DNA of 42,657 bases from a virus, in IMG/VR virus record IMGVR_UViG_3300018059_000021, positions 1-42,657 of that record. One strand, 5' to 3'. Below the pieces are notes generated by a model. That model had not been told where the DNA came from and did not search any database. It was given only the letters and a program-made list of their open reading frames with translations. Below, one piece after another: positions 15,791 through 38,449 of the stretch (the first letter of the stretch is position 1; every line of letters starts with the position of its first letter). Made by a program: the position numbers and the translations under genes.

Positions 15791-17439
15791 AGTGGCCCGC
15801 GGCAACAGTCGAAATCTGGCCGATCGACACCCTCAAGCCCCGGAAGAAGAACCCCCGCACGCACTCCGAAGCGCAGGTCGAACAGATCGCGGCGTCGATG
15901 CGCGAGTGGGGGTGGACGAATCCGATCCTTGCGGAAGAAGACGGGACGATCATCGCCGGCCACGGGCGGCTGCTGGGCGGCAAAAAGAACGGATACCAGG
16001 AAGCGCCGGTCATCGTGGCGCGCGACTGGAGTCCGGAACAGGTCCGCGCCTACGTGATCGCGGACAACAAGCTGGCGCTCAATGCCGGGTGGGACGAGGA
16101 ACTACTGGTCGCGGAGCTTGAAGCCTTGAGCGCAGCCGACTTTCAAATGGAGCTGATCGGATTCAGCGAGGAAGAGCTGCTGGCCCTGAGTGCGGATCCC
16201 GAGCCCGAGCCGGACAACGACGGGCGCGACACCGTCCCCGAGCGCCAGGCAATCGCCATCACGGCGGTCGGAGAGGTGTGGATCTGCGGGCGGCACCGGA
16301 TCATGTGCGGGGATTCGACGATCGCCGACCAGGTCGCGATCCTGATGAACAGCGAAAAGGCGCGGCTGATGCACGCCGACCCGCCCTATGGCATGGGCAA
16401 AGAGGCGGACGGCGTCACGAACGACAACCTCTACGGGGACAAACTCGACCGTTTTCAGATGGCATGGTGGGCCGCGTGGCGCCCGTTCCTGGAGGCGAAT
16501 GCGTCCGCGTACATCTGGGGCAACGCGCCGGACCTGTGGCGGCTGTGGTATCGACGCGGGAGCCCCTACAAGGCCGATGAAAAGACCGCGGCCGGCATCG
16601 GCGGTCTGGAGCAATCCGAAGCGCTGACGCTGCGCAATGAAATCGTGTGGGACAAGAAGTCGATCGCGGGCATGGCGAGCGAAGACCTCACGCAGTTTCC
16701 CGAGGCGTCCGAGCGCTGCCTGTTCTTCCAGATTGGGAAGCACGTCCTGCTGGTGAACCAGACGAAGGACGATTATTGGGAGGGCTGGGAGCCGATCCGG
16801 CGGTGGCTGTGCGAAGAGCGCGACCGCGCCGGCATGAAGCCGGGCGACGTCAAGCGCATCTGCGAAAATCACATGTACGGGCACTGGTTCGGCAAGTCGC
16901 AATGGGTCTTCATCACCCGCGAGAACTACGAAAAGTTGCAGCGCGCCGCCGCCGGCCGCGCCTTCACCCGCGCCTATGAGGACTTGCAGCGCGAGTATCG
17001 AACTGCCGCCGGCGTCTTCAACGGCGAGGTGAAGGATCCGCGCGTGGCGGAATTCAGGCAGGCGCGGCCCTTCTTCGATAACGCGCACTCGATCATGCGC
17101 GACGTGTGGGAATTCTCGCGCGTCACCGGCGAGGAACGCTTCGAGCATGCGACGCCGAAGCCCGTGGACATGGTCGAGCGCATCATGCGCAGCAGCGCCA
17201 GGGAAAACGAACTGGCCGTCGAGCCGTTCATCGGCACCGGGTCCACGCTGATCGGCGCGCACAAATGCCAGCGGCGGTGCTTCGGGATGGAGATAGAACC
17301 GCGCTGGGTGGACGTGACGGTGCGGCGGTGGCAGTCCTACAGCGGGCTGGAAGCGACCCTCGAGGGGGACGGGCGGACGTTTGCGGAAATAGAAAATGAA
17401 AGGCAGAAAGCCAAAGCCGTCCTATCTGCGGGTGCTTGA
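15787..17439 (+). CDS. ParB-domain/DNA amino-methyltransferase fusion
   Basis: A 550-residue protein. Residues 1-130 are a ParB-like N-terminal domain (NPRTHSEAQVEQIAASM, AGHGRLLGG, VIADNKLALNAGWD). Residues about 160-540 are a DNA methyltransferase of the beta order, with catalytic DPPYG (198-202) before the SAM-binding FIGTGST (481-487). Such enzymes methylate adenine N6 or cytosine N4. An unusually long central region (about 230-440) includes WGNAPDLWRLWYRR and a LKPxD-like MKPGDV segment. Its 3' end overlaps the small terminase gene by 44 bases. Likely protects or marks DNA before packaging. Confidence 0.85.
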   Translation: MKWPAATVEIWPIDTLKPRKKNPRTHSEAQVEQIAASMREWGWTNPILAEEDGTIIAGHGRLLGGKKNGYQEAPVIVARDWSPEQVRAYVIADNKLALNAGWDEELLVAELEALSAADFQMELIGFSEEELLALSADPEPEPDNDGRDTVPERQAIAITAVGEVWICGRHRIMCGDSTIADQVAILMNSEKARLMHADPPYGMGKEADGVTNDNLYGDKLDRFQMAWWAAWRPFLEANASAYIWGNAPDLWRLWYRRGSPYKADEKTAAGIGGLEQSEALTLRNEIVWDKKSIAGMASEDLTQFPEASERCLFFQIGKHVLLVNQTKDDYWEGWEPIRRWLCEERDRAGMKPGDVKRICENHMYGHWFGKSQWVFITRENYEKLQRAAAGRAFTRAYEDLQREYRTAAGVFNGEVKDPRVAEFRQARPFFDNAHSIMRDVWEFSRVTGEERFEHATPKPVDMVERIMRSSARENELAVEPFIGTGSTLIGAHKCQRRCFGMEIEPRWVDVTVRRWQSYSGLEATLEGDGRTFAEIENERQKAKAVLSAGA

Positions 17440-20989: not shown

Positions 20990-21669
20990 ACCGCAAGCAC
21001 CGCACGTTCCCCTTCCACGTGAAGGAAGTGAAGGACACCGGAGAGTTCAGCGGCTACGCGTCGGTCTTCGACAAGATCGACTGGTACGGCGACGTCGTGC
21101 GCCGCGGCGCGTTCGCGAAGACGATCGCGGAGTGGAAGGCGAAGGGCAAGCTGCCGCCGCTGCTGTGGCAGCACAACAGCGCCATGCCGATCGGTCCGCA
21201 CCTGGACATGTACGAGGACGAGAAAGGGCTCTTCGTCGTGGGCAAGCTGCTGGTCGACGCGATCGAAAAGGCGCGCGAAGCCTACGCGCTGCTGAAGGCC
21301 AACGTCATCAGCGGCATGTCGATCGGCTTCGACATCCCCGACGGCGGCATGGAGTACGACGGCAAGACGAACGTCTGGAACCTCAACGAGCTGGACCTGT
21401 GGGAAAACTCGCTGGTCACGTTCCCGGCGAACGAAGGCGCGCAGGTGGAGGAAGTGAAATCCATTCTGGCCGCTGGTAAGCTCCCCGCCCCATCCGATTT
21501 TGAGGGGTTCCTGCGAGACGCAGGATTCTCCCGAAAGCAGGCGAAGCACATCGCCGCCTGCGGATACACGAGCCTGCGAGACGCTGGCTTGCCTCTGCGA
21601 GAAGCCGAGGACGAAAAGGCGATCGACCTGTCCGAACTACTCGACTACGTAAAGAGGTATGGCACATGA
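20986..21669 (+). CDS. HK97-type prohead protease
   Basis: A 227-residue serine protease that trims the capsid protein during maturation. Residues fit H63 (LLWQHNSAMPIG), S112 (ISGMSIGF) and a Glu near 140 (LDLWENSLVTFPAN), the HK97 gp4 triad. The core ends near 165; the last 60 residues (SRKQAKHIAACGY and the acidic tail) form the usual scaffold-like C-terminal part. Joined by ATGA overlaps to portal and capsid genes. Confidence 0.93.
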   Translation: MNRKHRTFPFHVKEVKDTGEFSGYASVFDKIDWYGDVVRRGAFAKTIAEWKAKGKLPPLLWQHNSAMPIGPHLDMYEDEKGLFVVGKLLVDAIEKAREAYALLKANVISGMSIGFDIPDGGMEYDGKTNVWNLNELDLWENSLVTFPANEGAQVEEVKSILAAGKLPAPSDFEGFLRDAGFSRKQAKHIAACGYTSLRDAGLPLREAEDEKAIDLSELLDYVKRYGT

Positions 21670-22871
21670 GCGGCACCCCAAGCGAAGAGCTGCAGCGCCA
21701 GGTAAAGGAAATCCTGGATGGCATGAAGAAGCGAGACGGCGACCTGGACGCCGTGCTGAAGAAGACCGGCGAGGACGTCGCTGCCTTCGGCAAAATTCAG
21801 GAAGGCACGAAGGATGCGGTCGCCGACCTGACGAAGAAGGGCCAGGAGCTGCACGGCCGGCTGCACGATCTGGAACAGAAGATGACGACCATCAGCGCCA
21901 CGCCAGCGCGCGAGCTGTCGATCGGTGAGCAGGTCGTAGGCGATGCGAAGTTCAAGGAATTCGCAGCCACGGTCCGTGGTTCGAAGATCAAGGGCAACTT
22001 CCGCCACGAGGTCAAGACGATCACCAGCATCAGCGGCAGCGCCGGCCAGGGTATCTGGAGCACGCGCCTGCCGGGCGTGATCGAAGAGCCGCTGCGTCCG
22101 CTGTCGATACGGGACTTGCTGGACACGGGCACGACCGACAGCAACCTGATCGAGTGGGTGAAGGAAAATGTGTACACGAACGCCGCGGACGTGGTGAGCG
22201 AGGGCGCACTCAAGCCCGAGTCGAACATCACCTACGAACGGGTCGACGTGCCGGTTCGCACGATCGCGCACTGGATTCGTGCGTCGAAACAGGTGCTGGC
22301 GGACTTCAAGCAGTTGCAGACGCTGATCAATGGCCGGCTGCGCTGGGGGCTCAAGATCAAGGAAGAAGACCAGCTCCTGTACGGGGACGGCACGGGCGAG
22401 AACCTTCTCGGCCTGGTGCCGCAGGCGACCGCCTATAACACGGCGCTGAATCGCCCCGGCGACACGCAGATCGACACCATCCGCCACGCGATCTTGCAGG
22501 TGCGGCTGGCGTTCTATCCGGCGTCCGGCATCGTCACCAGCCCGACCGACTGGCACAACATCGAGCTGACGAAGGACAACGAGAATCGCTACATGATGGC
22601 TAGCCCGACGTCCCGCACGCCGCCGATGCTGTGGGGTTTGCCGGTCGTGGAGTCCGACGGTACGAGCCTGGGTGAGTTCCTGGTCGGTGCCTTCCGCATG
22701 GCCGCCACGCTCTTCGATCGCGAAGAGGCGGCGATCCTGTTGAGCACGGAAGACCAGGACAACTTTGTCCGCAACCTGGTGACGATCTTGGCCGAAGAGC
22801 GGCTCGCGCTGGCCGTGTCGCGCCCTCGCGCGTTCGTGCATGGCGGCTTCCCGGCCGGCTCGACCACCTGA
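21666..22871 (+). CDS. Major capsid protein (HK97 fold)
   Basis: 401 residues. The first 75 or so form a coiled-coil delta/scaffold domain (EELQRQVKEILDGMKKRDGD through DLEQKM), expected to be cut off by the prohead protease near residue 100. The HK97-fold core follows: TRLPGVIEEPLRPLSIRDLL, ASKQVLADF, LLYGDGTGENLLGL, AFYPASGIVTSPTDW, SPTSRTPPMLWGLPVVES and AERRLAL-like ending. It is expected to be the most abundant virion protein. A rho-independent terminator follows at once, separating it from the modification island. Confidence 0.95.
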   Translation: MSGTPSEELQRQVKEILDGMKKRDGDLDAVLKKTGEDVAAFGKIQEGTKDAVADLTKKGQELHGRLHDLEQKMTTISATPARELSIGEQVVGDAKFKEFAATVRGSKIKGNFRHEVKTITSISGSAGQGIWSTRLPGVIEEPLRPLSIRDLLDTGTTDSNLIEWVKENVYTNAADVVSEGALKPESNITYERVDVPVRTIAHWIRASKQVLADFKQLQTLINGRLRWGLKIKEEDQLLYGDGTGENLLGLVPQATAYNTALNRPGDTQIDTIRHAILQVRLAFYPASGIVTSPTDWHNIELTKDNENRYMMASPTSRTPPMLWGLPVVESDGTSLGEFLVGAFRMAATLFDREEAAILLSTEDQDNFVRNLVTILAEERLALAVSRPRAFVHGGFPAGSTT

Positions 22872-22878
22872 TAGGCTG

Positions 22879-22947
22879 ATCCCCCCGTTCACCGAGGGGG
22901 ATATCGGCGAGAAGGGCCCGGCGTGCTAACGTGCGCCGGGCCTTTTT
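22879..22947 (+). terminator. Hairpin pair and rho-independent terminator after the capsid gene
   Basis: A first stem pairs ATCCCCC (22879-22885) with GGGGGAT (22896-22902). A second, 9-bp stem (22915-22923 with 22934-22942, GGCCCGGCG/CGCCGGGCC) has a 10-base loop and is followed by five T. The second has the form of an intrinsic terminator. It would reduce expression of the island relative to the capsid gene. Confidence 0.8.
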
Positions 22948-22965
22948 ACTTTGAAGGGGACGTCG

Positions 22966-23397
22966 ATGCCGACTGTCAAAGCGCTGAAGAGTTTCCGCGG
23001 CCGGTACGGGATGATCCGTGCGGGCAGCATCTTCAATTGCGAGCCGGGCTACGCGGAGTCGCTACGCAAGAACAAGCTGATCGAGGTCATCGATGGCGCC
23101 GCGGATGAGAAGCGCCAGGAACCGGGGCCCGAGGCGAACCGCAAGAAACCTGATCCACCGGGGCGCGCGGGAAAAGACCAGCCCGGCGAACAGGGGGAAC
23201 GTCGGGACGCTACGGTGCCCCCACTGGCCGGTGGGCTGGCGCTCACGTCTGCATCATTGCGAGCGGACCTAGCCTCACGAAAGACGACGTCGACCAAGTC
23301 CGCCGCTGGCGCGAAGAAGGCGAAGCCGGTGCCGGCCAAGGGGAAAAAGAAAACCTCGAGTACTCGCGCGAGCGCCCCCCCGCCCCCCGCCACGTAA
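22966..23397 (+). CDS. Small head-module protein with low-complexity tail
   Basis: The first 45 residues (MPTVKALKSFRGRYGMIRAG, then KNKLIEVID) match a small protein often found right after the capsid gene in siphophages. The frame then runs as Pro/Lys-rich sequence to 23397. From about residue 85 the same DNA encodes, one frame back, the conserved N-terminus of the next enzyme. So either the real protein ends in a meaningless tail, or ribosomes shift at GGGAAAA (23169-23175) and make a fusion. AAGGGG precedes ATG 22966. Confidence 0.6.
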   Translation: MPTVKALKSFRGRYGMIRAGSIFNCEPGYAESLRKNKLIEVIDGAADEKRQEPGPEANRKKPDPPGRAGKDQPGEQGERRDATVPPLAGGLALTSASLRADLASRKTTSTKSAAGAKKAKPVPAKGKKKTSSTRASAPPPPAT

Positions 23398-23930
23398 TCG
23401 TCGTCAACACGACGTACGAGGCGGCGCCGTGGGCGGATGTGCTGTACGCCTGCGACGTGACCTGGTGGCGTCACCATTTCCCCCGAGTCGCCACCGGCTT
23501 CGGGGGCGAGCTGTGGACGGTCAGTGAGGTCGCGCGCGACCAGTTCGGGCTGGCGTGGGTGTTCGGCACGGATTACGCAGGACTCTCCGCTGCATCGGAC
23601 TACATCCACACCGGGCGGAACAGCGGATACCAGGCGATCAGCCTCGCTTACCTTTTCGGTGCCGTGCGCGTCGTGCTCCTGGGCTTCGACTTCATGATCG
23701 GTCCGCGCGGTGAGCGGCACTGGCACGGCAACCATCCGAAGGGGCTGGGCAACGGTGGCGAGAGTCGCTACCGATCGTGGGTGCATGCGATGGACGTGCT
23801 GGCCGTCGATCTGAAGCGCACATCCTGCAAAGTGTTGAATGCCAGCCGGCGAACTGCGCTACGATCCTTCCAGCGCGTCACGCTGGAAACCGCACTCAAT
23901 GAAAGACAACAAACCGCCGGTACTGCATGA
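23154..23930 (+). CDS. Phage glycosyltransferase-like enzyme (MptE/DUF115-like), start unresolved
   Basis: The open frame from 23154 reads a conserved enzyme: VCIIASGPSLTKDDVDQVRR (from 23247), then VIVVNTTYEAAPWADVLYAC, DVTWWRHH, NSGYQAISLAYLFGAVRVVL and LLGFDFM, ending VLNASRRTAL and a short tail. This is the phage relative of MptE/DUF115 proteins with a GT-like Rossmann fold. No ATG, GTG or TTG exists in this frame before the conserved part. Translation therefore needs a -1 frameshift from gene 22966-23397, a rare start codon, or a sequence error. It is the first enzyme of the modification island and resembles gene 26712-27335. Confidence 0.68.
   Translation, partial: STGARGKRPARRTGGTSGRYGAPTGRWAGAHVCIIASGPSLTKDDVDQVRRWREEGEAGAGQGEKENLEYSRERPPAPRHVIVVNTTYEAAPWADVLYACDVTWWRHHFPRVATGFGGELWTVSEVARDQFGLAWVFGTDYAGLSAASDYIHTGRNSGYQAISLAYLFGAVRVVLLGFDFMIGPRGERHWHGNHPKGLGNGGESRYRSWVHAMDVLAVDLKRTSCKVLNASRRTALRSFQRVTLETALNERQQTAGTA
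23169..23175 (+). promoter_or_regulatory. Candidate -1 frameshift site GGGAAAA
   Basis: The heptamer is phased as G GGA AAA in the frame of gene 22966-23397, the canonical X XXY YYZ arrangement. A -1 slip moves ribosomes into the frame of the enzyme at 23154-23930, which is open from 23154 and lacks its own start. GC-rich dyads follow within 60 bases (for example CCCAC/GTGGG around 23219-23235). Seen directly; function inferred. Confidence 0.45.
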
Positions 23931-24543
23931 GCGATCCGGGCTCTGGTTTCCCGAATGCACGGCGCGCGTGGATGCCGAATACGACTACATGCTCAAGCGG
24001 GTGACGGACGTCGATCTGGCGGTGAAGGTCTGCCGCAAGCGGCGAGTGGCGGTGCAGGCGGGCGGCAACGTGGGGATGTGGCCGCTGCGCATCGCGAAGT
24101 TCTTCCCGATCGTCCACACATTCGAGGCGGTCCCCTACTACGTTGATGCCCTGCGCCGAAACGTCAGCCACGTGCCGGGGATCACGGTCCACGCCGGGCT
24201 GCTATCGTCCAGCGTCGGCATTGCGGTGCCGTTCAGTGAGCGAGCGGACGGGCGATCGAGAGCTGTCCCGGAAGGCGAGGCGAACGCCACGCCCATTGCC
24301 ACGACGATCGATGCGCTAGAGCTGCCGACCTGCGACGCGCTATTTCTCGACGTTGAAGGGCATGAAATGCACGCGCTGGAAGGCGCGCGGCGAACGATCG
24401 AACGCTGCAGGCCGGTCATCACGATCGAAGTCTGGGAGAAGGACGCAGCGGAGCGGGATCGGTTCTTCCTTGGGCTGAAATATGTGCTGTCCGCCAAGGT
24501 TCACGCCGACCGCATCTACGTGCCCACCGGCGGGAAATCATGA
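23899..24543 (+). CDS. FkbM-family SAM methyltransferase
   Basis: A 214-residue class I methyltransferase. The SAM motif is AVQAGGNVGMW (51-61) with acidic E76 (HTFEAVPYYVDAL). Later ALFLDVEGHEMHALEGARR (about 153-171) and PVITIEVWE are typical FkbM blocks. FkbM enzymes often O-methylate sugars or polyketides. ATG 23899 lies inside the end of the previous gene, and it overlaps the next gene by ATGA. Within the island it would methylate a glycan made by its neighbours. Confidence 0.85.
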   Translation: MKDNKPPVLHERSGLWFPECTARVDAEYDYMLKRVTDVDLAVKVCRKRRVAVQAGGNVGMWPLRIAKFFPIVHTFEAVPYYVDALRRNVSHVPGITVHAGLLSSSVGIAVPFSERADGRSRAVPEGEANATPIATTIDALELPTCDALFLDVEGHEMHALEGARRTIERCRPVITIEVWEKDAAERDRFFLGLKYVLSAKVHADRIYVPTGGKS

Positions 24544-25694
24544 AAATAAACGTCCTCTCTGAAGCGGAGACGCTTGCTTCCTGCCACGACTTCAGCATCG
24601 CGCGCTTCGGCGACGGTGAGCTGCGCCTTGCGATCGGTGGGGGCTGTAGCAGCCAGCAGGCCGAGAAGGGTCTGGCGCGCGAGTTGACCGACATCATGCA
24701 CACCTACCGTGGGTTCCTGGTGGGCGTGCCCAACTTCGAGAAATCCCCACGCGCAAAGAGCTGGGCCAAGTATGCGGAGGGGCAGTTTGCGTCGCTCTAC
24801 AAGCAGGATCTGTACGCCTCAAGTCTGATCACTCGTCCCGACAGCGCTCCCTGGATCGACACCCCGGAGTATTGGCAGAACGTGCGGAATCTGTGGGCGG
24901 GAAAGGACGTGGTGCTGGTGGCTGGCGACCGGAAATCGATCACACCGGAAATGCTGACCGGAGCAAGCAGCGTGCGCCTGGTCGAAGGTCCACGGCAGCA
25001 CGCCTACAGTCAAATCGACCGCATCGAATCGGAAATAGGCACGCCGACCGGACTGGTCATCATGTGCCTGGGTGCCGCAGCGACCGTACTGGCCGCGCGG
25101 TTGGATGCAAAGGGCGTGCATGCGCTCGATCTGGGCCACATGGGGATGTTCATGAAACACGCCGGCGCCTATGCCTACGCTTCGGACGATCTGACCTCGC
25201 CAGACTACAAGCGGCAATTGCAGAAGAAGCACGCCGGCATGAAGTGGGGCAGATCAGGCAACAGCCACGCCGACACCGTGATCGACTTTGCGGCGGCGAT
25301 GAAGGCAACAAGCGTGCTCGACTATGGGTGCGGGCGTGGGACGCTGAAGGCGGCGGTGCCGAAGCTGAAGGTGCTCGAGTACGACCCCGGCATCCCCGGC
25401 AAGGATGATCTGCCGAAGCCGGCGGACATCGTCGTGTCGACGGACGTGCTGGAGCACATCGAGCCGGACAAGGTCAACCGGGTGCTGCGGCACCAGTACC
25501 AGTTAGCGAGAAAGGGTGGATTCTTCGTGATCGCGCTGAGTGCTTCGCGCGAAGTTCTTCCCGATGGACGCAACGCCCACCTGCTGATCCAGTCGCCGGA
25601 CTGGTGGCTGGAGAAGTTGAAGGAAAGCGGGTGGCAGATCATGCGCCATGAGCTGCGAAAAGGTCTTTACGTGTGGTGTTCTAAAACGATCTGA
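24540..25694 (+). CDS. GT-D-type glycosyltransferase fused to methyltransferase
   Basis: Residues 1-215 resemble GT-D fold glycosyltransferases (DUF1792): ARFGDGELRL (21-30), VLVAGDRKS, GLVIMCLGAAATVLAARLD and ALDLGHMGMFM. Residues about 240-384 form a class I methyltransferase with VLDYGCGRGTLKA (259-271), an acidic EYD, and VSTDVLEHI. One chain could thus add and methylate a sugar. ATG 24540 overlaps the FkbM gene stop. This two-domain arrangement in a phage head operon is unusual. Confidence 0.78.
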   Translation: MKINVLSEAETLASCHDFSIARFGDGELRLAIGGGCSSQQAEKGLARELTDIMHTYRGFLVGVPNFEKSPRAKSWAKYAEGQFASLYKQDLYASSLITRPDSAPWIDTPEYWQNVRNLWAGKDVVLVAGDRKSITPEMLTGASSVRLVEGPRQHAYSQIDRIESEIGTPTGLVIMCLGAAATVLAARLDAKGVHALDLGHMGMFMKHAGAYAYASDDLTSPDYKRQLQKKHAGMKWGRSGNSHADTVIDFAAAMKATSVLDYGCGRGTLKAAVPKLKVLEYDPGIPGKDDLPKPADIVVSTDVLEHIEPDKVNRVLRHQYQLARKGGFFVIALSASREVLPDGRNAHLLIQSPDWWLEKLKESGWQIMRHELRKGLYVWCSKTI

Positions 25695-25710
25695 ACCGGA
25701 GAGCGAAGCT

Positions 25711-25995
25711 ATGGGCATAGTTGCGAAATCGATCCGCGTGGCCGTCGATGAATCGACGGAGGTGCAGGTTTGCGCGGCGAATCGATCACGGGTCGGGCTG
25801 GTGCTGCGTGCCGTTGACGGCAATGCCTTTCTGGGCGGCCCGGACTTCGACCATTCGACGTTGAACGGGATGCGGCTGCTGGAGGGCGAGCGGCACCAGG
25901 TCGAAGGGCCCAGCGCAGAGGCCGAGCTGAAGGGGTGCTCGGGCATCGTTGGAACCATCCAGCTCGAAGGACTCGAATTCATCGTCGAGCCTTGA
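25711..25995 (+). CDS. Small beta-rich head protein (possible decoration protein)
   Basis: A 94-residue protein with NRSRVGLVLRAVDGNAFLGG (24-43), NGMRLLEGERHQV and a C-terminal beta strand. This pattern is common in small beta-sandwich proteins encoded next to capsid genes, possibly decoration or head-surface proteins. GGAGAG precedes ATG 25711. It is the only non-enzyme inside the island apart from the leading small protein, so it is a candidate acceptor for the predicted modification. Confidence 0.6.
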   Translation: MGIVAKSIRVAVDESTEVQVCAANRSRVGLVLRAVDGNAFLGGPDFDHSTLNGMRLLEGERHQVEGPSAEAELKGCSGIVGTIQLEGLEFIVEP

Positions 25996-25998
25996 TCT

Positions 25999-26700
25999 AT
26001 GGACTTTCGGATGCGGGTCGACGACGAACACTTCGAATACCTACGGCTGCAGAAGGGCAGCCTCGACCCCTACGCCGGCGACCGCGTGGACTGGCACCGG
26101 CGCTATGAGGAAAGCCTGCGCGAGACGTTCGACCAGATCGCGCCGCACCTGCCGCCGACCTGCTGGGGCATGCTCGACATCGGCAGTGGGCTGGGCGGGA
26201 TCGACGTGCTGATCGGGCGCCACTACTGCGAGCCGCGGCTGGGCGCCGACGTTACGACCGTGGAGGATGCCGACCCCATCTTTCTGCGCCGCCCTGCGCA
26301 GCCGTGGCCCTACACGCATCTGCTCGACGGGATCGACGATCGCCCCGTCATGAAGCTGCACCGCGAGACCTTCAACGACATGCGGGTGGCTAAGGATTTT
26401 CAGGTTAAGAACGGGATGCCGGCGGAGCGCTTCGGGTTCTTCGGCACGCGCGATCAGTTCTACTCGCGCCCCTACGATCTGGTCGTGAGCTTCGGGAGCT
26501 GGTGCTTCCACTACTCACCGGACAAGTATTTGCAGCCGCTGCTGTCCGGCGGCGGGCTGCACCTGGAGTCGGTCATCATCATCGACGTGCGCAAGGGCAA
26601 GCCGGATTACGAGCGGACGCTGTCGCGCGCCCTGGAATGCGTGGCGGTCATCGATCGGCAAAAGAAATACACGCGCGCCGTATTCAGGCGCCGCCAGTGA
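25999..26700 (+). CDS. SAM-dependent methyltransferase-like protein
   Basis: 233 residues with a class I SAM-binding motif LDIGSGLGGIDVLIG (59-73) and a later LVVSFGSWCFHYSPD (about 161-175) in the position of motif IV. The N-terminal 50 residues are helical (YAGDRVDWHRRYEESL). Substrate unknown; the island context suggests sugar or small-molecule methylation. ATG 25999 is four bases after the upstream stop. Confidence 0.75.
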   Translation: MDFRMRVDDEHFEYLRLQKGSLDPYAGDRVDWHRRYEESLRETFDQIAPHLPPTCWGMLDIGSGLGGIDVLIGRHYCEPRLGADVTTVEDADPIFLRRPAQPWPYTHLLDGIDDRPVMKLHRETFNDMRVAKDFQVKNGMPAERFGFFGTRDQFYSRPYDLVVSFGSWCFHYSPDKYLQPLLSGGGLHLESVIIIDVRKGKPDYERTLSRALECVAVIDRQKKYTRAVFRRRQ

Positions 26701-26711
26701 CGGGCGGCGAC

Positions 26712-27335
26712 ATGACGATCATCGGCGGCGGCTGGTCTGTCCTGAACGTGGCGCTCGATGTGCTATGCGGGACGGTGATCGCCGTCAACGACGCGGCCAT
26801 TCTGGCGCCGCGCTGGGATCATGCGTTGAGCATGGACCGCAAGTGGGCAGAGGGCCGGATCGACCAGGTCGTGCTGCGCAGCTCGGAAACCGATCCGCCG
26901 CGGAAAGTGTGGATCCGGCGCAGCGCGCTCCAAAATCTGACGGGCTACGTGAAGGACTGGCCGTGGGTGCAGTCGTTCGAATGCGATCACGAGACGTCGA
27001 TCTTCAGCACGAAACACGGCCACCTCAATGGGACCAATTCGGGCGCCTGCGCGCTGAACCTTGCGTGGCAACTGCGACCGAATCGGCTTTTTCTGCTGGG
27101 ATTCGACATGAACCGCGACGACCACGGGCGGGCGTACTGGTATCCCTCCTACCCCTGGACCAATGGTGCCGGCAGCACCAGCGACGGCAAGTACGCGGGC
27201 TGGGCCAAGCAGTTCAAGACGGCGTCCAGCGCCTTCGCGCGCATCGGCTGCCAGGTGTTCAACGTGAGTCCGGGGTCCGCGATCGATGCTTTTCCGAAAA
27301 TCAGCCCAGCCCAATTTCTGAAGGAGTGCCGGTGA
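26712..27335 (+). CDS. Second MptE/DUF115-like phage enzyme
   Basis: 207 residues with TIIGGGWSVLN (2-12), VIAVNDAAILAPRWDHALSM and NSGACALNLAWQLRPNRLFL followed by LGFDMN. This is the same layout as gene 23154-23930, so the two are paralogues. It may transfer or pyrophosphorylate a sugar-like substrate. GTG 26697 would overlap the upstream stop as GTGA and add five residues; ATG 26712 is chosen for similarity to relatives. Ends in GTGA with the glycosyltransferase. Confidence 0.75.
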   Translation: MTIIGGGWSVLNVALDVLCGTVIAVNDAAILAPRWDHALSMDRKWAEGRIDQVVLRSSETDPPRKVWIRRSALQNLTGYVKDWPWVQSFECDHETSIFSTKHGHLNGTNSGACALNLAWQLRPNRLFLLGFDMNRDDHGRAYWYPSYPWTNGAGSTSDGKYAGWAKQFKTASSAFARIGCQVFNVSPGSAIDAFPKISPAQFLKECR

Positions 27336-28060
27336 CGCCGTTTACGCTGGTGATGGCCTATTACGAGAACGCGGGCATGTTGCTGGCGCAGATGAAGCGC
27401 TGGTGCGAGCTGCCCGCGGACATCCGCGAGGGCTTGAGCGTCGTCGTCATCGATGACGGCAGCCCGGTACGCCCTGCGCTGGAGGTCTGCACGCCGCTGC
27501 GCCTCACCGCGCTTCGCTCGAACCTGGAAGACTTCCAGCTCTGGCGCATGGGGGTCGATGTGCGCTGGAATCAGGACGCGTGCCGCAACGTGGGCGTGCG
27601 CGAGGCGAAAACCTCCTGGGTGCTGCTAACCGACATGGATCACGTCGTACCCGTTCAGACGTGGCAGCGGCTGATGAAGCTGCCGCTGAAAAAGTCGCGG
27701 GTCTATCGGTTCGGGCGGGTGTCGGCGCCGGCGTTGGACCCCTACAAGTCGCACCCGAATTCGTGGGCGCTCACGCGCAACGTGTACTGGCAGATTGGCG
27801 GCTACGATGAGGCGCTGGCGGGCAACTACGGCACCGACGGTGACTTCCTCAACCGAGCGCGCCGCGAGGCGGACCTGATCGAGCTGTCGGAGGTGCTGGT
27901 CCGCTACCCGCGGGAGGTCGTACCCGATGCCAGCACGACGACGCTGGAGCGCAAGCGCCCCGAAGATCGGGAGAACGTCAACCGCATCTGCAAAGCGCGC
28001 GCAGCCGATCCGGACTGGAAGCCGCTGCACTTTTCGTTCCCCTGCGAGCGCCTTGTGTGA
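27332..28060 (+). CDS. Family 2-like glycosyltransferase (GT-A)
   Basis: 242 residues with SVVVIDDGSP (36-45), the metal-binding DMD (101-103) in VLLTDMDHVV, and GGYDEALAGNYGTDGDFLNR (about 162-181), all typical of GT2 enzymes using nucleotide sugars. No membrane segment is seen, so it should act in the cytoplasm on a protein or soluble acceptor. GTG 27332 has AAGGAG upstream and overlaps the previous stop. Overlaps the next glycosyltransferase by four bases. Confidence 0.85.
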   Translation: MTPFTLVMAYYENAGMLLAQMKRWCELPADIREGLSVVVIDDGSPVRPALEVCTPLRLTALRSNLEDFQLWRMGVDVRWNQDACRNVGVREAKTSWVLLTDMDHVVPVQTWQRLMKLPLKKSRVYRFGRVSAPALDPYKSHPNSWALTRNVYWQIGGYDEALAGNYGTDGDFLNRARREADLIELSEVLVRYPREVVPDASTTTLERKRPEDRENVNRICKARAADPDWKPLHFSFPCERLV

Positions 28061-28764
28061 GGGAGTTCGTCACTTTCAAGTGGCGCGCGCCTCAGAATTA
28101 CCGCAGCAAGTTCGGCCCTGAGACGGTCAACACGCTGTGGTCGATGCTCGGTCGCCATCATGACGGGCCGTGCCGTCTCACCTGCATCACGGACGATTCG
28201 GCGGGCATTTCCAGCGAGGTCCGCGTGCTGCCGCTGTGGGACGATTACAGCAAGCTGCCGAGCCCACACGGCCACGGCTACCCGTCGTGCTATCGGCGGC
28301 TGAAGTTGTTCAGCGAGGAAGCCGCCGACATCATCGGCCCGCGGTTCGTGGTGCTGGATCTGGACGTGGTGATCTGCCGGAAGATCAACCCGCTGTTTGA
28401 GGGGGACGAGGACTTCAAAATCTGGGGGGACACTGCGAAGGGCACCCCGTACAACGGCAGCCTGTGGATGCTACGCGCGGGCGCGCGGCGGCATGTGTGG
28501 GACACCTTCGACCCCATAGAGTCGCCGAAGAAGTCGCTGAAGCTGGGCTACATCGGCAGCGATCAGGGATGGATCGGCGCCGCGCTGGGCCCGCACGAGC
28601 CGAAGTGGAGCACGCGCGACGGGGTATACTCGTATCGCAACCACATTCAGCGCACGGGCTATTTGTTGCCCGAGAACGCGCGGATCGTTATTTTCCACGG
28701 GGCCGTCGATCCGTGGGGCATGCAGGCAAAGCGGCTAGGCTGGGTCTCGAAACATTACAGGTGA
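28057..28764 (+). CDS. GT8-like glycosyltransferase
   Basis: 235 residues with an aspartate triad DLD (101-103) in FVVLDLDVVI, PYNGSLWMLRAG (about 129-140) and GSDQGWIGAAL (about 166-176), the order seen in GT-A enzymes of the GT8 type. It is cytosolic, without membrane segments. GTG 28057 forms GTGA with the GT2-like gene. It is the last enzyme of the island; the head-tail connector starts five bases later. Confidence 0.75.
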   Translation: MREFVTFKWRAPQNYRSKFGPETVNTLWSMLGRHHDGPCRLTCITDDSAGISSEVRVLPLWDDYSKLPSPHGHGYPSCYRRLKLFSEEAADIIGPRFVVLDLDVVICRKINPLFEGDEDFKIWGDTAKGTPYNGSLWMLRAGARRHVWDTFDPIESPKKSLKLGYIGSDQGWIGAALGPHEPKWSTRDGVYSYRNHIQRTGYLLPENARIVIFHGAVDPWGMQAKRLGWVSKHYR

Positions 28765-28768
28765 CGCC

Positions 28769-29107
28769 GTGTCCTCCTACGTCGATCTTGCCGAGGCGAA
28801 GGGCTTCCTCAACGTCTACTACGACGAGAAGGACACCGAAATCCAGATGATGATCGACGCGGCGGAAGCCCACGTCGCCACCTGGTTGAACCGGCCGCTG
28901 TCCGAGCTGCTGATCGAAGGCAGCGACAGCCCGCCGCCGGATTCGCCGGGCGTTGCGGAGCTGCAGCCGGACGTGAAGCTGGGCGTGCTCATGTACGTGA
29001 ACGACTTCTGGCAAAACCGCGAAATCACGGTGACGGGCACCATCGTCGCCAACAACCCGACGGCCGATCGCATCCTTCACTTGCACCGCAAGTGCCTGGG
29101 GGTCTGA
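28769..29107 (+). CDS. Head-tail connector (HK97 gp6-like)
   Basis: 112 residues: YVDLAEAKGFLNVYYDEKDT, a helical MMIDAAEAHVATWLNRPL, and KLGVLMYVNDFWQNRE with a C-terminal helix. This is the usual layout of the adaptor that binds the portal ring. GTG 28769 with AGGTGA upstream. Its position right after the island shows the island interrupts an otherwise standard capsid-to-connector order. Confidence 0.85.
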   Translation: MSSYVDLAEAKGFLNVYYDEKDTEIQMMIDAAEAHVATWLNRPLSELLIEGSDSPPPDSPGVAELQPDVKLGVLMYVNDFWQNREITVTGTIVANNPTADRILHLHRKCLGV

Positions 29108-29280
29108 TGGCGTGCGGGACTTGCGCAAAGGTCCGGGCTATTCTGCCGGCGACAGTGCGGGAGCGGCTGGAACAGATCGAGCGGGACCGCGACGCGAGGC
29201 GCGCGAAAAATGCAGAGCGGAAAGTTCGTACACCTGATCAGCATCGAGGCACCCGCCCGGCCACAAGACAGCGGGGGTGA
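29107..29280 (+). CDS. Small Cys-motif protein, 57 residues
   Basis: Starts MACGTCAKVRAILPATVRER and continues with a charged helix; such short proteins occur between connector genes in related phages. It overlaps the next gene by 71 bases, so the last third may not be under selection. TGATG overlap upstream. Role unknown. Confidence 0.5.
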   Translation: MACGTCAKVRAILPATVRERLEQIERDRDARRAKNAERKVRTPDQHRGTRPATRQRG

Positions 29281-29596
29281 CTTCGCCGAGACCTGGGCCG
29301 CGGTGCCGGGCTTCGCGCGCATCATGGGCGAAGTGCTCCCCGATCGGGCCAGCGAGTATTTCGCCGCAAAGCAGATCGTCGCCACACAAAACGCGCTGAT
29401 TCGGCTGTACTACCAGCCCGGCATCGACGCGACCATGCGCGTCGTTCACCACGTCCGACCCGGCCAGGATGAGTATTGGGACATCAACGGCGCCGTGCCC
29501 TTCCAGCATCGGCAGCGCGAGCTGCGGCTGTACTGCATAGCGCGCGAGGCGGAGGGATACCGCCGCGGCGTCGACCTTGAAAACCCGGAGGCATGA
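29210..29596 (+). CDS. Head-tail adaptor (joining protein)
   Basis: 128 residues resembling the phage head-tail joining family: KFVHLISIEAPARPQDSGGD (5-24), TWAAVPGFARIMGEV, a region RLYYQPGIDATMRVVH, and a C-terminal LRLYCIA strand. It would extend the connector below the portal. The ATG at 29210 lies within the small Cys-motif frame. Confidence 0.85.
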   Translation: MQSGKFVHLISIEAPARPQDSGGDFAETWAAVPGFARIMGEVLPDRASEYFAAKQIVATQNALIRLYYQPGIDATMRVVHHVRPGQDEYWDINGAVPFQHRQRELRLYCIAREAEGYRRGVDLENPEA

Positions 29597-29790
29597 TGAA
29601 GATCGACGACATCGACCAGGCGTGGACCGTAGCGTATTCGCTCGCCTTCGCGGTCACGGCGCTGGGCAGTGAAATCAGCGGGGCGCGTAACTCACCGGAA
29701 GACATCGACGCGCGGGCGCGAGCGCTGGCTGACAAGGCAATGGAGACCATCACCGCGCGAGCCGTTGTCGCCGCCCGTCGGAAACAGTAA
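29593..29790 (+). CDS. Hypothetical 65-residue helical protein
   Basis: Two helices with a hydrophobic N-terminal stretch (AWTVAYSLAFAVTALGSEI), then an acidic and a basic segment. ATG 29593 overlaps the upstream stop; ATG 29596 is also possible. Small genes at this place are common in siphophages, without known roles. Confidence 0.62.
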   Translation: MMKIDDIDQAWTVAYSLAFAVTALGSEISGARNSPEDIDARARALADKAMETITARAVVAARRKQ

Positions 29791-30240
29791 ATGGCAAGCC
29801 AGCTCGAGGGCGTCCGCGAACTGACGGGCCAACTGACCGAGCTGGGCGCCAAGCTGGCGGCGCGAGAGCTGAAGGGCACCGTGAAGACGGCGCTGGGCGA
29901 GGCGGAGCATCGAGCGCGCGCGCGCATGCCGCAAGGCACGGAACCGCACAAAACCTACCGCGGACGTCTGGTGTCGCCGGGCTTCGCGCTGTCCACGCTG
30001 CACATTGAGGTCGGGCTGAACAAGCGCACGGGCGCGGTCGTGGCCACGCTGGGCGTCGGGCGCGAGGCGTTCTACGTGGTGCAGTTCGTGGAGCTGGGCA
30101 CCAGCACGACCGCGGCGCAGCCGTGGTTGCGCCCATCTTTCGAGGAAGCCGAGGACGCTATGCTGCGGTCCATTGCCGATGAACTGCGGCAGCGCATCGA
30201 CAAAATCGCCAAGCGCCGGGCGGCCGGTCGGAGACTGTGA
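29791..30240 (+). CDS. HK97 gp10-like tail/neck component
   Basis: 149 residues with the gp10-family pattern: GVRELTGQLTELGAKLAARE, then TVKTALGEAEHRARARMPQG, and FYVVQFVELGTSTTAAQPWL followed by RPSFEE. These proteins lie at the head-tail junction and help complete the tail. It begins directly after the upstream stop and overlaps the next gene by one base (TGATG). Confidence 0.85.
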   Translation: MASQLEGVRELTGQLTELGAKLAARELKGTVKTALGEAEHRARARMPQGTEPHKTYRGRLVSPGFALSTLHIEVGLNKRTGAVVATLGVGREAFYVVQFVELGTSTTAAQPWLRPSFEEAEDAMLRSIADELRQRIDKIAKRRAAGRRL

Positions 30241-31995: not shown

Positions 31996-33898
31996 GACGT
32001 TGCAGAAGTGGAGCGGCGGCCTGCTGGCTGCCTTCTCCGCGCGCGCCCTGATCCAGTTCGGCGCCGGCGTCCTGAAGGCGCAGGACAACCTCAAAGACAT
32101 GGCCGAGAAGGCGGGCGTGTCGGTCGAGAATCTGTCGCGCCTGGGCTATGCGGCGTCGCAGTCCGGCACCGACATCGAGGGGTTGGAAACCGGGCTCGCC
32201 AAGCTGTCGAAGACGGCGGTCGCTGCGTCGGAGGGAAGCAAGGAATCGGCCGCCGCCTTCAAAGCGCTGGGCGTCGAAGCCGAGAACGCCGACGGCTCAC
32301 TCAAAGCCACCGACCAATTGCTGCTGGAAATCGCGGACAGCTTCAGCAAGCACGCGGACGGCGCGGCGAAGTCGGCCCTGGCGCAGAAGATATTCGACAA
32401 GTCGGGCGCCGACCTGATCCCGTTTCTGAATCAGGGCGCGGCCGGCATCGAAGAGCTGACGAAGAAAGCCGACGAGCTGGGCATCACGGTGAGCGGCAAG
32501 GCGGCCAAAGCGGCGGACGAGTTCAACGACAGCATGGCCACGCTGGCTGCCGTCACCCGCGGCGTCGTCGGGCAGGCGCTGGGCGAGCTGACGCCGATCA
32601 TGAACAAGTTCAGCGAGGGCATGCTGACGGGCGCCCAGAGTTCGGGCGCATTCGACAAGGCGGCGCGCGTGCTGGCGGCCGGGCTGAAAATCCTGCTGTC
32701 GGCCGGCGTCATCATCGGCGAGGTCTTCGATCGCGTGGGCTCGGCGATCGGCAACACGGCGGCGTCGCTGGCGGCCATCGTGCAGGGGGACTTTCGCCGC
32801 GCCCTGAACATCCAGGTCGACTTCTACCGCGAGAGTGCGGAGAGCGTCGGCAAGACGGCCGACGAACTGGTGACGATCTGGAGCGCGGCCGGCGAGAAGA
32901 TCGCCAAGGAAGCGGCGGCGACGGACGAAGCGCTCAAGGGCAGCTTCAGCTTCGGCGGCAATTCCGACGCGTTGCAGGAAGTGAAGATCGGGCTCGAGAA
33001 GATCGACGTGAGCCCGATGGAGAAGTTTTACGCCGACCTCGACGGGCTGACGGCGACCGCCCAAGAGAAGTCGCTGCGGTCGATTGCCGAACAGCGCGCG
33101 GCGCTGGAAGAGCTGGTGGCGTCGCGCCGGATCAGCGATGAGCAGTACATCGCACGCCTGGACGAAATCAAGGCCGCCGAGAACGACGCCCTCGGGATCA
33201 CGAAGTTGCAGGTCGAGGCGGAGGAACGCCGCACGCAGCTCTTCGCCGACGGCGCGGCCATCTTCGAGGCAACGCGCACTCCGCTGGAGCTGTACGAGCA
33301 ATCGCTGATCCGGCTGAACCTGCTGCTGCAGCAAGGGGCGATCGATCAGGAAACCTACACGCGCGCGGTCGTGGACGCACAGGACAAGCTCGACGAGGCC
33401 GGCGGCAAGATGACCGACTTCGCGGAGCAAATGCGCCGCAACACTCAGGACATTCTGGGGCAGGGGCTGGTCGACGTGATGAAGGGCAGCTCGAGCGATA
33501 TTCTGGAAGTCTTCACCGACATGGTGACGAAGCTGGTGGCGCAGGCGCTGGCTGCGCAGCTCGCCGAGAAGCTCTTCGGCACGGGGACGGGCGGCAGCTC
33601 AAGCGGTGGGTGGGTGGATGCTGCGATCGGGATCTTCAGTTCGTTTGCCGGTGGCTCACGCGACGGTGGCGGGCGGGGCCAGCCGGGTATGGCCTACGCG
33701 ATCGGCACGGGCGCGCAGCCCGAGGTGTACGTGCCAGACCAGCCGGGCACCTTCTACCCGCGCGGGGAAATGGGCGGCGCCGGCGGCAACATCACGCAGA
33801 ACATCAACGTAAGCGGGCGCCCTGACCAGCGCACGGCCAGGCAGATCCAGATCGAGGCTGCGCGGCAGCAGCGCGTCGCCACCGCGAGGTTAGGCTAA
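31883..33898 (+). CDS. Tape measure protein
   Basis: 671 residues, largely helical and coiled-coil (LAKLVVRLEAQSAQLLTELE onward). Conserved start KLVVRLEAQ, mid-region hydrophobic helices (VVGQALGELTPIMNKF, LKILLSAGVIIGEVF), and a C-terminus with YAIGTGAQPEVYVPDQPGTF and a Gly-rich end. By the common rule of about 1.5 Angstrom per residue it would set a tail of roughly 100 nm. GTG 31883 starts inside the gpT frame. Confidence 0.92.
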   Translation: MADLAKLVVRLEAQSAQLLTELEKANRKIDRFAAQTTKTLQKWSGGLLAAFSARALIQFGAGVLKAQDNLKDMAEKAGVSVENLSRLGYAASQSGTDIEGLETGLAKLSKTAVAASEGSKESAAAFKALGVEAENADGSLKATDQLLLEIADSFSKHADGAAKSALAQKIFDKSGADLIPFLNQGAAGIEELTKKADELGITVSGKAAKAADEFNDSMATLAAVTRGVVGQALGELTPIMNKFSEGMLTGAQSSGAFDKAARVLAAGLKILLSAGVIIGEVFDRVGSAIGNTAASLAAIVQGDFRRALNIQVDFYRESAESVGKTADELVTIWSAAGEKIAKEAAATDEALKGSFSFGGNSDALQEVKIGLEKIDVSPMEKFYADLDGLTATAQEKSLRSIAEQRAALEELVASRRISDEQYIARLDEIKAAENDALGITKLQVEAEERRTQLFADGAAIFEATRTPLELYEQSLIRLNLLLQQGAIDQETYTRAVVDAQDKLDEAGGKMTDFAEQMRRNTQDILGQGLVDVMKGSSSDILEVFTDMVTKLVAQALAAQLAEKLFGTGTGGSSSGGWVDAAIGIFSSFAGGSRDGGGRGQPGMAYAIGTGAQPEVYVPDQPGTFYPRGEMGGAGGNITQNINVSGRPDQRTARQIQIEAARQQRVATARLG

Positions 33899-34503
33899 TG
33901 TCGTTCGTCGAAACGCGCCTCCTGGACTGCGTCGCCTACGGCACCGCCGGCGGACCGTCGTGGCTCACCCGCAAGGTCGGGCTGAAGAACGGCATCGTCC
34001 GCCGCAACCCGCAGCGCTCCCGTCCGCTGTATCGGTTCCAGATCGTTTATCGGAACCTGCTCGAGGTCGACCACGTCGCGGTGCTGGATGCCTTCAACGC
34101 GTGCATGGGTGGCGCCTTCGCGTTCCGGATCAAAGACTGGTCCGATTACGTGGCGACCGATGAGCTGATCGGGCTGGGCACCGGCGCGCCGCAGACGGTC
34201 CAGCTTGCGAAGCTGTACACGTTCGGAAACCGCACGGTGTCGCGGCCGATCCGAAAACCCGTCAACAACGGCAGCGTCATCATCACCGCCGACAGCGTGC
34301 CGATCGCGGCCACGATCGACTACACGACGGGCGAGGCGACGTACACCGCGGGCAGCGGGGACGTGGTGCGCTGGTCCGGCGAGTTCGACGTGCCGGTGTG
34401 CTTCATGGATGACGAGCTGCAATTTTCGATCGATGACAAGAACGCTACCGACGGGTTCTTCCTCACCGCCGACGTGGGGCTGGAAGAGGATTTAAGCGCG
34501 TGA
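33898..34503 (+). CDS. DUF2460 distal tail protein
   Basis: 201 residues matching the DUF2460/TIGR02217 tail family: SFVETRLLDCVAYGTAGGPS, the RRNPQRSRPLYRFQIVY block, FRIKDWSDYVA (about 79-89) and a C-terminal EFDVPVCFMDDEL. In gene transfer agents and related phages this forms the distal tail ring. It overlaps the tape measure stop by one base. Confidence 0.9.
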   Translation: MSFVETRLLDCVAYGTAGGPSWLTRKVGLKNGIVRRNPQRSRPLYRFQIVYRNLLEVDHVAVLDAFNACMGGAFAFRIKDWSDYVATDELIGLGTGAPQTVQLAKLYTFGNRTVSRPIRKPVNNGSVIITADSVPIAATIDYTTGEATYTAGSGDVVRWSGEFDVPVCFMDDELQFSIDDKNATDGFFLTADVGLEEDLSA

Positions 34504-35453
34504 CAGGCCACCGCACGATCCCGACCGCGCTGCTGGCCCACCTGCAAGAGTCCACGACGACGACGACGCGGCTGCTGAAGATCATGCTGCGCAGCGGCTT
34601 CAGCTATGGGCTGGCGATGCTCGACCGCAACGTCACCTACGACGACGGCGACGGCGCGCTGATCTACTACGCCACCAACGGCTTCGACCCATCCGCCATT
34701 TCGGCCGACATCGGCTATGCGGTCGACAATGCGGAAGGGTACGCGCTGATATCCGACGCGGTGCCGGGCGTCACCGTGGAAATGGTCGAGGCGGGCGAGC
34801 TGGATGACGCGCAGTGGATCGCCTACCTGGTCAACTACGAAGACACGTCGATGGGTCACATGATCCTGGACGCCGGCGACGTGGGCGAGGTGCGGACCCG
34901 CTACGGCATGGTGTGGATCCCCGAGTTGCTGTCCTACATGGCGCGGCTGCGGCAGCCGGTGGGGTCGGTGTGGTCGCGGACCTGCCGCGCGATCTTCGGC
35001 AGCCCTCGCAGTTCGCAAACAGGCTGCGGCATCGACTTGGCGCCGCTGTGGATCGCGGGCGAGGTGACGGTGCTGGGCGCCGAGACGAATCGCATCTTTA
35101 CCGGCGACGTGGTCATCGGGATCAGCGGCATCAACCCCGCGCCAGGTCGGGTGCAGTTCCTGACGGGCGCGAATGCGGGCCGGGAGTTCTCGACGGAAGA
35201 AGTCGTCGGGCTGCTGGTTACGCTGGAAGAGCCGACGAACTATGCGATCGAGGTGGGGGACACGTACCGCATCCGGCCCGACTGCCGCAAGCGCTACGTG
35301 GAGGACTGCATCACGCTGTACGGGAACGGCGTGAACTTCAAGGGCGAGCCGCTGATCCCGGTCGGGGACGCCACGCAGATCCAGGTGCCCGGCGCTCAGA
35401 TACCGGGCGGTGGTGGGTGGAACAGCGAAGTGACCGAAGGGGAGGGCTCTTGA
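34500..35453 (+). CDS. DUF2163 tail-tip hub protein
   Basis: 317 residues with TIPTALLAHLQESTTTTTRL (6-25), GDVGEVRTRYG, RQPVGSVWSRTCRAIFGSPR, GCGIDLAPL and DCRKRYVEDCITLYGNGVNF; this is the DUF2163/BR0599 layout with paired Cys residues. In GTA-like tails it forms the hub below the distal ring. GTG 34500 overlaps the upstream stop. Confidence 0.9.
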   Translation: MTGHRTIPTALLAHLQESTTTTTRLLKIMLRSGFSYGLAMLDRNVTYDDGDGALIYYATNGFDPSAISADIGYAVDNAEGYALISDAVPGVTVEMVEAGELDDAQWIAYLVNYEDTSMGHMILDAGDVGEVRTRYGMVWIPELLSYMARLRQPVGSVWSRTCRAIFGSPRSSQTGCGIDLAPLWIAGEVTVLGAETNRIFTGDVVIGISGINPAPGRVQFLTGANAGREFSTEEVVGLLVTLEEPTNYAIEVGDTYRIRPDCRKRYVEDCITLYGNGVNFKGEPLIPVGDATQIQVPGAQIPGGGGWNSEVTEGEGS

Positions 35454-35869
35454 GCGCCGCCGCCTTCGTCACCGAAGCCCGCAAGCTCAAGGGCGCGGCG
35501 TGGCGGCATCGCGGGCGCAAGCCCTGGGCTGTGGACTGCATCGGATTGCTGGTCGTGGCGGGCCGTGGGGCTGGCATTACCGCGCCGGATGAGAAGGGGT
35601 ACGGACGGGAGCCTTGGGAGGATCGCCTGTCCTGCGGCCTTAGAGCGCGTTTCGGCGCACCCGTGGCCGATTGGCGGGCGGGCGACATTGCCGTGATCCG
35701 GTGGAAGAAGGGCGAGCCATCGCACGTGGGGGTGCTGGCCGATCATCCCGACGGCGGGCTGTCGATCATCCACGCCCACAACCTGCACGGGGTCATCGAG
35801 CACGCGCTGCGCGGGCAGGTGGCCGGGTGCGTGGTCGAGGTGTACCGACCGTTCCCCGGTGCGCCATGA
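35450..35869 (+). CDS. NlpC/P60 tail peptidase
   Basis: 139 residues; a tail-associated cysteine peptidase expected to cut cell-wall peptides during DNA entry. Catalytic residues fit C30 (WAVDCIGLL), H92 (SHVGVLAD) and a His near 108-110 (IIHAHN). The start is TTG 35450, within TTGA overlapping the upstream stop, supported by GGAGG five bases upstream; no ATG/GTG precedes the domain. The rare start suggests low expression. The neighbours are the usual ones for this gene. Confidence 0.88.
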   Translation: MSAAAFVTEARKLKGAAWRHRGRKPWAVDCIGLLVVAGRGAGITAPDEKGYGREPWEDRLSCGLRARFGAPVADWRAGDIAVIRWKKGEPSHVGVLADHPDGGLSIIHAHNLHGVIEHALRGQVAGCVVEVYRPFPGAP

Positions 35870-37859: not shown

Positions 37860-37860
37860 C

Positions 37861-38448: not shown

Positions 38449-38449
38449 C

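Follow-up and report, generated by a model that had tools for sequence, protein, structure and literature searches.

Why would a phage place several enzymes that transfer sugars or methyl groups between the genes for its capsid and its head-tail connector, and how is the first of these enzymes made when its reading frame lacks a start codon? Both questions are raised by IMG/VR virus record IMGVR_UViG_3300018059_000021, analysed here over its whole length of 42,657 nt (the window), whose plus strand bears a head module of HK97 type and tail genes resembling those of siphoviruses. About 5.9 kb of dense, partly overlapping genes separate the capsid gene (21666-22871) from the head-tail adaptor (28769-29107), and the enzyme island occupies positions 22966-28764, plus strand. 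An earlier note on this DNA had placed seven enzyme genes between the two, and all seven lie within this interval, their coordinates and families having been checked. The missing start codon of the first enzyme, and with it the frameshift, escaped that note. This enzyme, a DUF115/MptE-like protein called DUF115-A here, looks like a -1 frame extension of the small post-capsid protein P4 and not like an independent gene:

22966-23397, plus strand: P4, small post-capsid protein, zero-frame product of 143 amino acids (phrog_2616)
23169-23175, plus strand: proposed -1 frameshift site, heptamer G_GGA_AAA in the P4 frame
23175-23930, plus strand: DUF115/MptE-like enzyme A (DUF115-A), in the -1 frame (phrog_4603, 4e-45; PF01973, 1e-4)

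From the upstream stop to its GPS motif, the DUF115-A frame of the window offers no ATG, GTG or TTG. It lies in the -1 phase relative to P4, whose open reading frame (ORF) extends past the GPS motif, and within the stretch that permits a slip the P4 frame contains G_GGA_AAA, a GGGAAAA heptamer of the same class as the lambda G/GT slip site. The predicted P4-DUF115 fusion comprises 321 amino acids (70 P4 codons plus 251), and a stem is found 3' of the slip site (z -2.3). P4 itself consists of a conserved N-terminal domain, which in its relatives gives a weak DUF7210 match, and a low-complexity tail that overlaps the DUF115 frame and is rich in Ser, Thr, Pro, Ala and Lys in the zero frame. An Rfam scan of 21600-29200 returned no matches. 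The layout points to a programmed -1 frameshift that would fuse a post-capsid protein to a glycosyltransferase-like enzyme.

Is this arrangement confined to the window? DUF115-A relatives gathered from bacterial genomes and viral contigs amount to 117 distinct loci, and in 86 of them, phage D3 included, a P4-like frame and DUF115 overlap in the same -1 phase. Sequencing error as the source of the missing start was rejected, the phase being the same in 86 distinct loci. Within 60 codons upstream of GPS, 83 of the 86 overlapping loci lack an ATG and 74 lack all of ATG, GTG and TTG, whereas 18 of the 31 non-overlapping loci have an ATG and 23 have some start codon (Fisher p 2.8e-10 for ATG, 1.6e-9 for any start). 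Canonical slippery heptamers occur in the P4 frame of 35/86 loci, compared with 4.6 expected from codon shuffles, and their density in the overlap is about 14 times that in long ORFs of the same loci. Over all 117 loci, heptamers are found in 38 for the P4 frame, against 5 and 9 for the other frames. Their sequences vary while the slip pattern is kept (GGGAAAA, GGGAAAC, CCCAAAA, CCCAAAG, CCCTTTG, AAATTTC and others). The loci are related, so that the counts are not independent events; what argues for frameshifting is that the phase, the lack of starts and the diverse slip sites agree.

Could DUF115-A instead be made by re-initiation at a non-standard start, or could the overlap be the decay of an older one? 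Annotators have put starts downstream of GPS in phages of this type, and 12 of the 86 overlapping loci do have some GTG, TTG or ATG upstream. However, GPS and a conserved R/K-W segment lie upstream of those annotated starts. The R/K-W motif precedes GPS in the DUF115 frame of 62/86 loci and in the P4 frame of none; in PAJU2, where DUF115 has its own ATG, the protein starts MADKRWTG, with R/K-W just behind the ATG, and the segment therefore belongs to the DUF115 protein. The -1 phase is constant, the heptamers vary yet keep their pattern at a similar distance, and loci with their own ATG mostly lack the overlap. Re-initiation or decay is thus very unlikely. In Psp6 (L204, 3022) and D14C (L207, 3106), the annotated DUF115 gene starts downstream of GPS, so that the annotated proteins lack this conserved motif, and D3 orf7 (L097, 4010) appears to be mis-annotated in the same way.

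Among known phages, Pseudomonas phage D3 (orf6.5/orf7) and Psp6 resemble the window in having a P4-like ORF followed by a -1 frame DUF115 in the capsid-connector slot, annotated in both as separate genes. The D3 slip heptamer is CCCAAAG; its slot holds the DUF115 gene only, while that of Psp6 holds DUF115, a hypothetical gene and one methyltransferase. The pmgO/pmgP region of phage P1 (hdmB/hdmC in P7) also has a DUF115 homologue (phrog_4603) among putative morphogenetic genes, but with its own ATG and no -1 overlap, and more than 500 plasmid records contain a DUF115 homologue. In lambda G-GT and retroviral Gag-Pol, a -1 slip at X_XXY_YYZ gives a minor, extended, assembly-linked protein (PMC5009743). 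Differently from these systems, the extension here resembles glycosyltransferase enzymes and lies in the head module; it is neither a tail chaperone nor a polymerase. No description of a P4-DUF115 frameshift was found in the literature searched, which excluded most subscription papers; within it the frameshift seems undescribed, and the arrangement looks widespread in phages and so far unannotated.

What might the extension do? The window protein scores 21.5-22.4 bits against PF01973, under the curated cut-off of 34.6, and is therefore filed as DUF115-like and not as a family member; all 18 aligned DUF115-A members match PF01973 (best 2.9e-7). The invariant residues are GPS, N, D, W, G, HWH and H, in the pattern GPS...NSG...HWH. 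The AlphaFold model (predicted local distance difference test, pLDDT, 86; predicted template modelling score, pTM, 0.85) has MptE-like phage proteins among its matches in BFVD (E 4e-6). PF01973 includes the Maf enzymes, which O-glycosylate flagellin and whose central domain resembles the sialyltransferase Cst-II (PMC11339370). Maf enzymes fall under the Pfam family that the phage proteins match and O-glycosylate protein inside the cell; unlike them, the phage DUF115 proteins are short, single-domain and score under the Pfam cut-off. PHROGs labels DUF115-A 'alpha-2,3-sialyltransferase', a label that PDB profile and fold searches did not independently confirm, the profile search giving noise only. 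A search of the window record for CST-I (PF06002) found no match, and its control likewise matched nowhere. Glycosyl transfer by DUF115-A is plausible from these family relationships.

The frameshifted enzyme opens a longer cassette, which with its borders reads as follows:

21666-22871, plus strand: major capsid protein, HK97 type, left border (80 capsid relatives collected)
22915-22947, plus strand: terminator-like hairpin between the capsid gene and P4, a perfect 9-bp GC stem followed by TTTTT
23896-24543, plus strand: FkbM-family methyltransferase (TIGR01444, 4.9e-14; PF05050, 2e-10); a longer start at 23839 is possible
24540-25694, plus strand: GT-D glycosyltransferase domain fused to a class I S-adenosylmethionine (SAM) methyltransferase (PF08759, 6e-24; PF13489, 7e-8)
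25711-25995, plus strand: small protein confined to the window, no family
25999-26700, plus strand: class I SAM-dependent methyltransferase MT2, by predicted fold, with no Pfam or PHROG match
26712-27335, plus strand: DUF115/MptE-like enzyme B (DUF115-B; phrog_4603, 2.8e-19), conserved in 22 loci
27332-28060, plus strand: GT2 (GT-A) glycosyltransferase (PF10111, 1.8e-6), whose GTG start overlaps the DUF115-B stop
28057-28764, plus strand: GT8-like glycosyltransferase (phrog_1962, 4e-12)
28769-29107, plus strand: head-tail adaptor/connector Ad1, right border (phrog_40, 2.4e-22)

Island proteins were scanned against Pfam, PHROGs and NCBIfam. Five of the seven enzymes are supported as glycosyltransferases or methyltransferases by family searches, active-site motifs and one fold model; for the two DUF115/MptE-like proteins the enzyme call is weaker but consistent. 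Scores stand above threshold for the GT-D domain (85.4 bits for PF08759, cut-off 27) and for FkbM (53 bits for TIGR01444, cut-off 37.7), and GT2 passes barely (28.1 bits for PF10111, cut-off 27.3). Catalytic motifs are conserved across up to 22 relatives. GDGE (GT-D) and LDYGxG (methyltransferase) of the fusion protein are kept in 19 loci, DDGSP and LLTDxDH of GT2 in 20 and DLD of the GT8-like enzyme in 20, and the G-rich methyltransferase motifs LDYGxG and LD[IV]G recur across the island family. The GT8-like enzyme (at most 77% identity) is the best conserved island member; a search for it in four prophage-bearing genomes gave a single weak match (E 4e-5, 31% identity). For MT2, the AlphaFold model (mean pLDDT 86, pTM 0.84) matches class I methyltransferases of the PDB by Foldseek (E 3.8e-6, probability 1.0), and the protein is predicted to have a Rossmann-like methyltransferase fold with a G-rich motif I.

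The identities proposed in the earlier note for the GT-D/methyltransferase fusion, the second class I methyltransferase and the GT2-like and GT8-like enzymes thus hold. Its two MptE/DUF115-like proteins both match phrog_4603, although the first appears as an extension of P4 and not as a gene of its own, and its FkbM methyltransferase is correct as to family but falls outside the conserved core. The 'small beta-rich head protein' that it saw at 25711-25995 has no relative among island loci or viral contigs and no family match; as a conserved head protein this candidate was rejected. In relatives, the two island genes that flank it are directly adjacent.

How stable is the cassette? IMG/VR was scanned with the GT-D/methyltransferase fusion, the capsid and MT2 as queries, and loci were mapped by tblastn. 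The order DUF115-A, GT-D/methyltransferase, MT2, DUF115-B, GT2, GT8 is kept in about 16 distinct viral contigs, and wherever a contig extends to both borders the cassette lies between capsid and connector (in distant contigs the connector is too diverged to match, and a head-closure or neck gene was taken as the border). FkbM, detected in 6/23 loci, is a variable member. Such conserved gene arrangement argues for a real module. The capsids of these contigs are 46-79% identical to that of the window, and among more distant capsid relatives (L030-L091) no cassette matches were detectable; in relatives the block keeps its place between capsid and connector, and it follows the capsid clade. A similar block between capsid and head closure occurs in a cultured virus, Tetraselmis viridis virus S20/SI1 (NC_020840, HQ632858), as DUF115, GT-D, DUF115, methyltransferase, GT2, FkbM-like and GT8. 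It differs in that GT-D and the methyltransferase are separate genes, identities are 42-48% and several members are annotated as hypothetical. The same synteny, for which the earlier note had suggested a search in other phages, is present in these contigs and, with changes, in S20.

The slot has other tenants. A PF02719 protein (NDP-sugar, that is nucleoside diphosphate sugar, 4,6-dehydratase type, 1e-78) and a UDP-glucose/GDP-mannose dehydrogenase (UDPG_MGDP_dh) occupy it in locus L022, where these nucleotide-sugar biosynthesis genes (L022:8153-9897) directly follow DUF115-A in the head module. L020 has a GT25 enzyme and a methyltransferase, L017 a methyltransferase weakly similar to rhamnosyl O-methyltransferase, and several D3-type prophages a methyltransferase. 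With these other sugar and methylation enzymes in sister phages, the capsid-connector slot is seen to receive glycan and methylation genes repeatedly. Describing capsid and connector as 'normally adjacent', as the earlier note did, was too strong: a DUF115 gene between them is common (D3, Psp6, S20, many prophages), often accompanied by a methyltransferase or glycosyltransferase. Large clusters of GT8, GT2, GT-D and FkbM homologues are also found at L008:1-5222 and L009:5457-10940, with no matched capsid or connector nearby. Hairpins comparable to the one at 22915-22947 follow the capsid gene in L012, L013, L014, L092, L016, L017, L020 and L022; the hairpin of the window may reduce downstream gene expression relative to the capsid.

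On what does the cassette act? Loci for surface polysaccharides often contain members of the GT2, GT8, GT-D, GT25-like and FkbM families, phage modification of lipopolysaccharide is well known, and PHROGs files phrog_1962 under morons and host takeover. As in serotype conversion, the cassette could conceivably remodel a glycan of the host surface, be it O-antigen, capsule or another, and so block superinfection or change adsorption. However, the three scans found no membrane-protein families among the island proteins, and the block contains no acyltransferase, flippase, polymerase inhibitor or other membrane-protein family; the pairing of a flippase- or polymerase-related membrane protein with a glycosyltransferase or acetyltransferase, taken as the mark of serotype conversion, does not occur among them. 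The genes overlap within a late head operon, with no promoter-like site in 21600-30000 (a weak test), and their capsid-connector position is conserved in relatives, while conversion genes usually sit elsewhere. A host-surface role is unlikely on this evidence.

Phage DNA is a second candidate substrate: hypermodification by sugars and methyl groups could protect it from restriction. Some viral glycosyltransferases are known to hypermodify DNA, using diverse glycans (Pyle 2024, as cited in PMC12619734), and the window also has, upstream of the terminase, a ParB-like domain fused to a DNA N6/N4 methyltransferase (15787-17439). Against this, no thymidylate-synthase-like hydroxymethylase, base kinase or TET-like gene was found among the ORFs scanned, a subset of those in the window; the enzymes belong to the head operon and not to the replication module, and one of them, DUF115-A, is tied to the post-capsid protein P4. 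DNA hypermodification is highly improbable.

A soluble, phage-made target is the best reading of the island, given its location, the lack of membrane families and the association with a capsid clade. Overall, we consider it somewhat probable that the cassette assembles a short methylated glycan on a protein which the phage itself encodes, the capsid being the likeliest, with DUF115-A produced via the frameshift. The earlier note had proposed a late island that builds a methylated glycan on the virion; the enzymatic nature and the late head-module setting stand, and virion glycosylation is a step that we infer with confidence modestly above even. Particle glycosylation by the phage itself is known from few phages. 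For mycobacteriophages, glycans were reported at the C-termini of capsid and tail-tube proteins (Freeman 2023, according to PMC12619734). As described in that summary, phage-coded glycosyltransferases act there on capsid and tail-tube proteins at C-terminal sites, and the likeness to the window lies in the enzymes being phage-coded; the present island differs in being larger, with methyltransferases and DUF115 proteins, locked between capsid and connector, of different relatives and with a predicted glycan. The capsid C-terminus ...FPAGSTT, a short Ser/Thr cluster conserved in most island phages, is a candidate glycan acceptor.

In the proposed mechanism, the cassette would be expressed late within the head operon and would build a short methylated glycan in the cytoplasm. 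Its glycosyltransferases would draw on host nucleotide sugars, and its methyltransferases (two free-standing, one fused to GT-D) would cap sugar hydroxyl groups. The acceptor would most likely be the major capsid protein, with the C-terminal FPAGSTT as candidate site, or another particle protein. The first enzyme, DUF115/MptE-like (Maf-type, sialyltransferase-like), would be made as a P4-DUF115 fusion by a -1 slip at G_GGA_AAA, giving a small quantity of enzyme that carries the P4 domain, which may bring it to its target. The sequence itself shows the enzymes, how they are conserved and ordered, the missing start, the constant -1 phase and the slip site; from these we deduce frameshifting in cells, glycan synthesis, a virion target and the part played by P4.

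Several observations weigh against this account. The downstream stem, strong in the window, is mild on average, with a mean z of -0.8 across 37 loci. Among the 86 overlapping loci, 44 have a C_CCY motif only, often right where the DUF115 frame opens, and 7 have neither a canonical heptamer nor C_CCY. Searched against PDB folds, the DUF115-A model had no significant match (best E 4e-3), which together with the sub-threshold PF01973 score makes glycosyl transfer weaker for this protein than for the others. At the capsid, the island loci L027, L029 and L005 lack a Ser/Thr-rich C-terminus (GETG/GQTG), and L020 and L022 share an FPAGSTT-type C-terminus yet lack the full island. Island clade and capsid clade share descent, so that their co-occurrence is not independent evidence, and the particle glycans of this clade are a prediction. 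In P1, pmgO and pmgP, which flank the DUF115 homologue, are non-essential for plaques (PMC10695390), and the function may therefore be conditional.

Virion glycosylation may also be right with an acceptor other than the capsid, namely a tail protein, a fibre protein or the tail of P4 itself. The DUF115-methyltransferase block of Caulobacter phage CcrSC follows tail genes, that of PAJU2 follows head closure, the mycobacteriophage tail tube is glycosylated too, and the zero-frame tail of P4 has the Ser/Thr/Pro/Ala/Lys-rich composition noted above. That composition is, however, partly dictated by the overlapping DUF115 frame, and the block directly follows the capsid gene both in the island clade and in D3-type phages; we hold this choice of acceptor to be rather doubtful. 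The tail genes of the window (33898-40063) include a glycoside hydrolase (phrog_2913), and the ORFs at 35671-36897 and 38450-40063 match opposite ends of the long tail family phrog_4271, with a tail fibre gene between them.

With the capsid retained as the favoured acceptor, why would the enzyme be coupled to P4 at all? The coupling may follow a logic like that of Gag-Pol: ribosomes would slip from P4 into a Maf-type glycosyltransferase, and P4 would deliver it in a fixed, minor ratio to the growing capsid, to which the adjacent cassette would then add a methylated glycan. We put this forward tentatively, as an idea that may well prove wrong.

The DUF115 gene of head modules (D3 orf7, the P1 pmg region) has no assigned role, and its frameshift link to a post-capsid protein offers a handle on function; the P4-DUF115 frameshift merits experiment more than the glycosylation claim alone. 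If the frameshift is real, records such as those of Psp6 and D14C annotate the enzyme wrongly. Decoration of the particle, should it occur, would bear on immune recognition, stability and adsorption of phages. If the Gag-Pol-like logic is true, it would reveal a conserved class of frameshift, so far overlooked, that many phages and prophages of Pseudomonadota have in their head modules.

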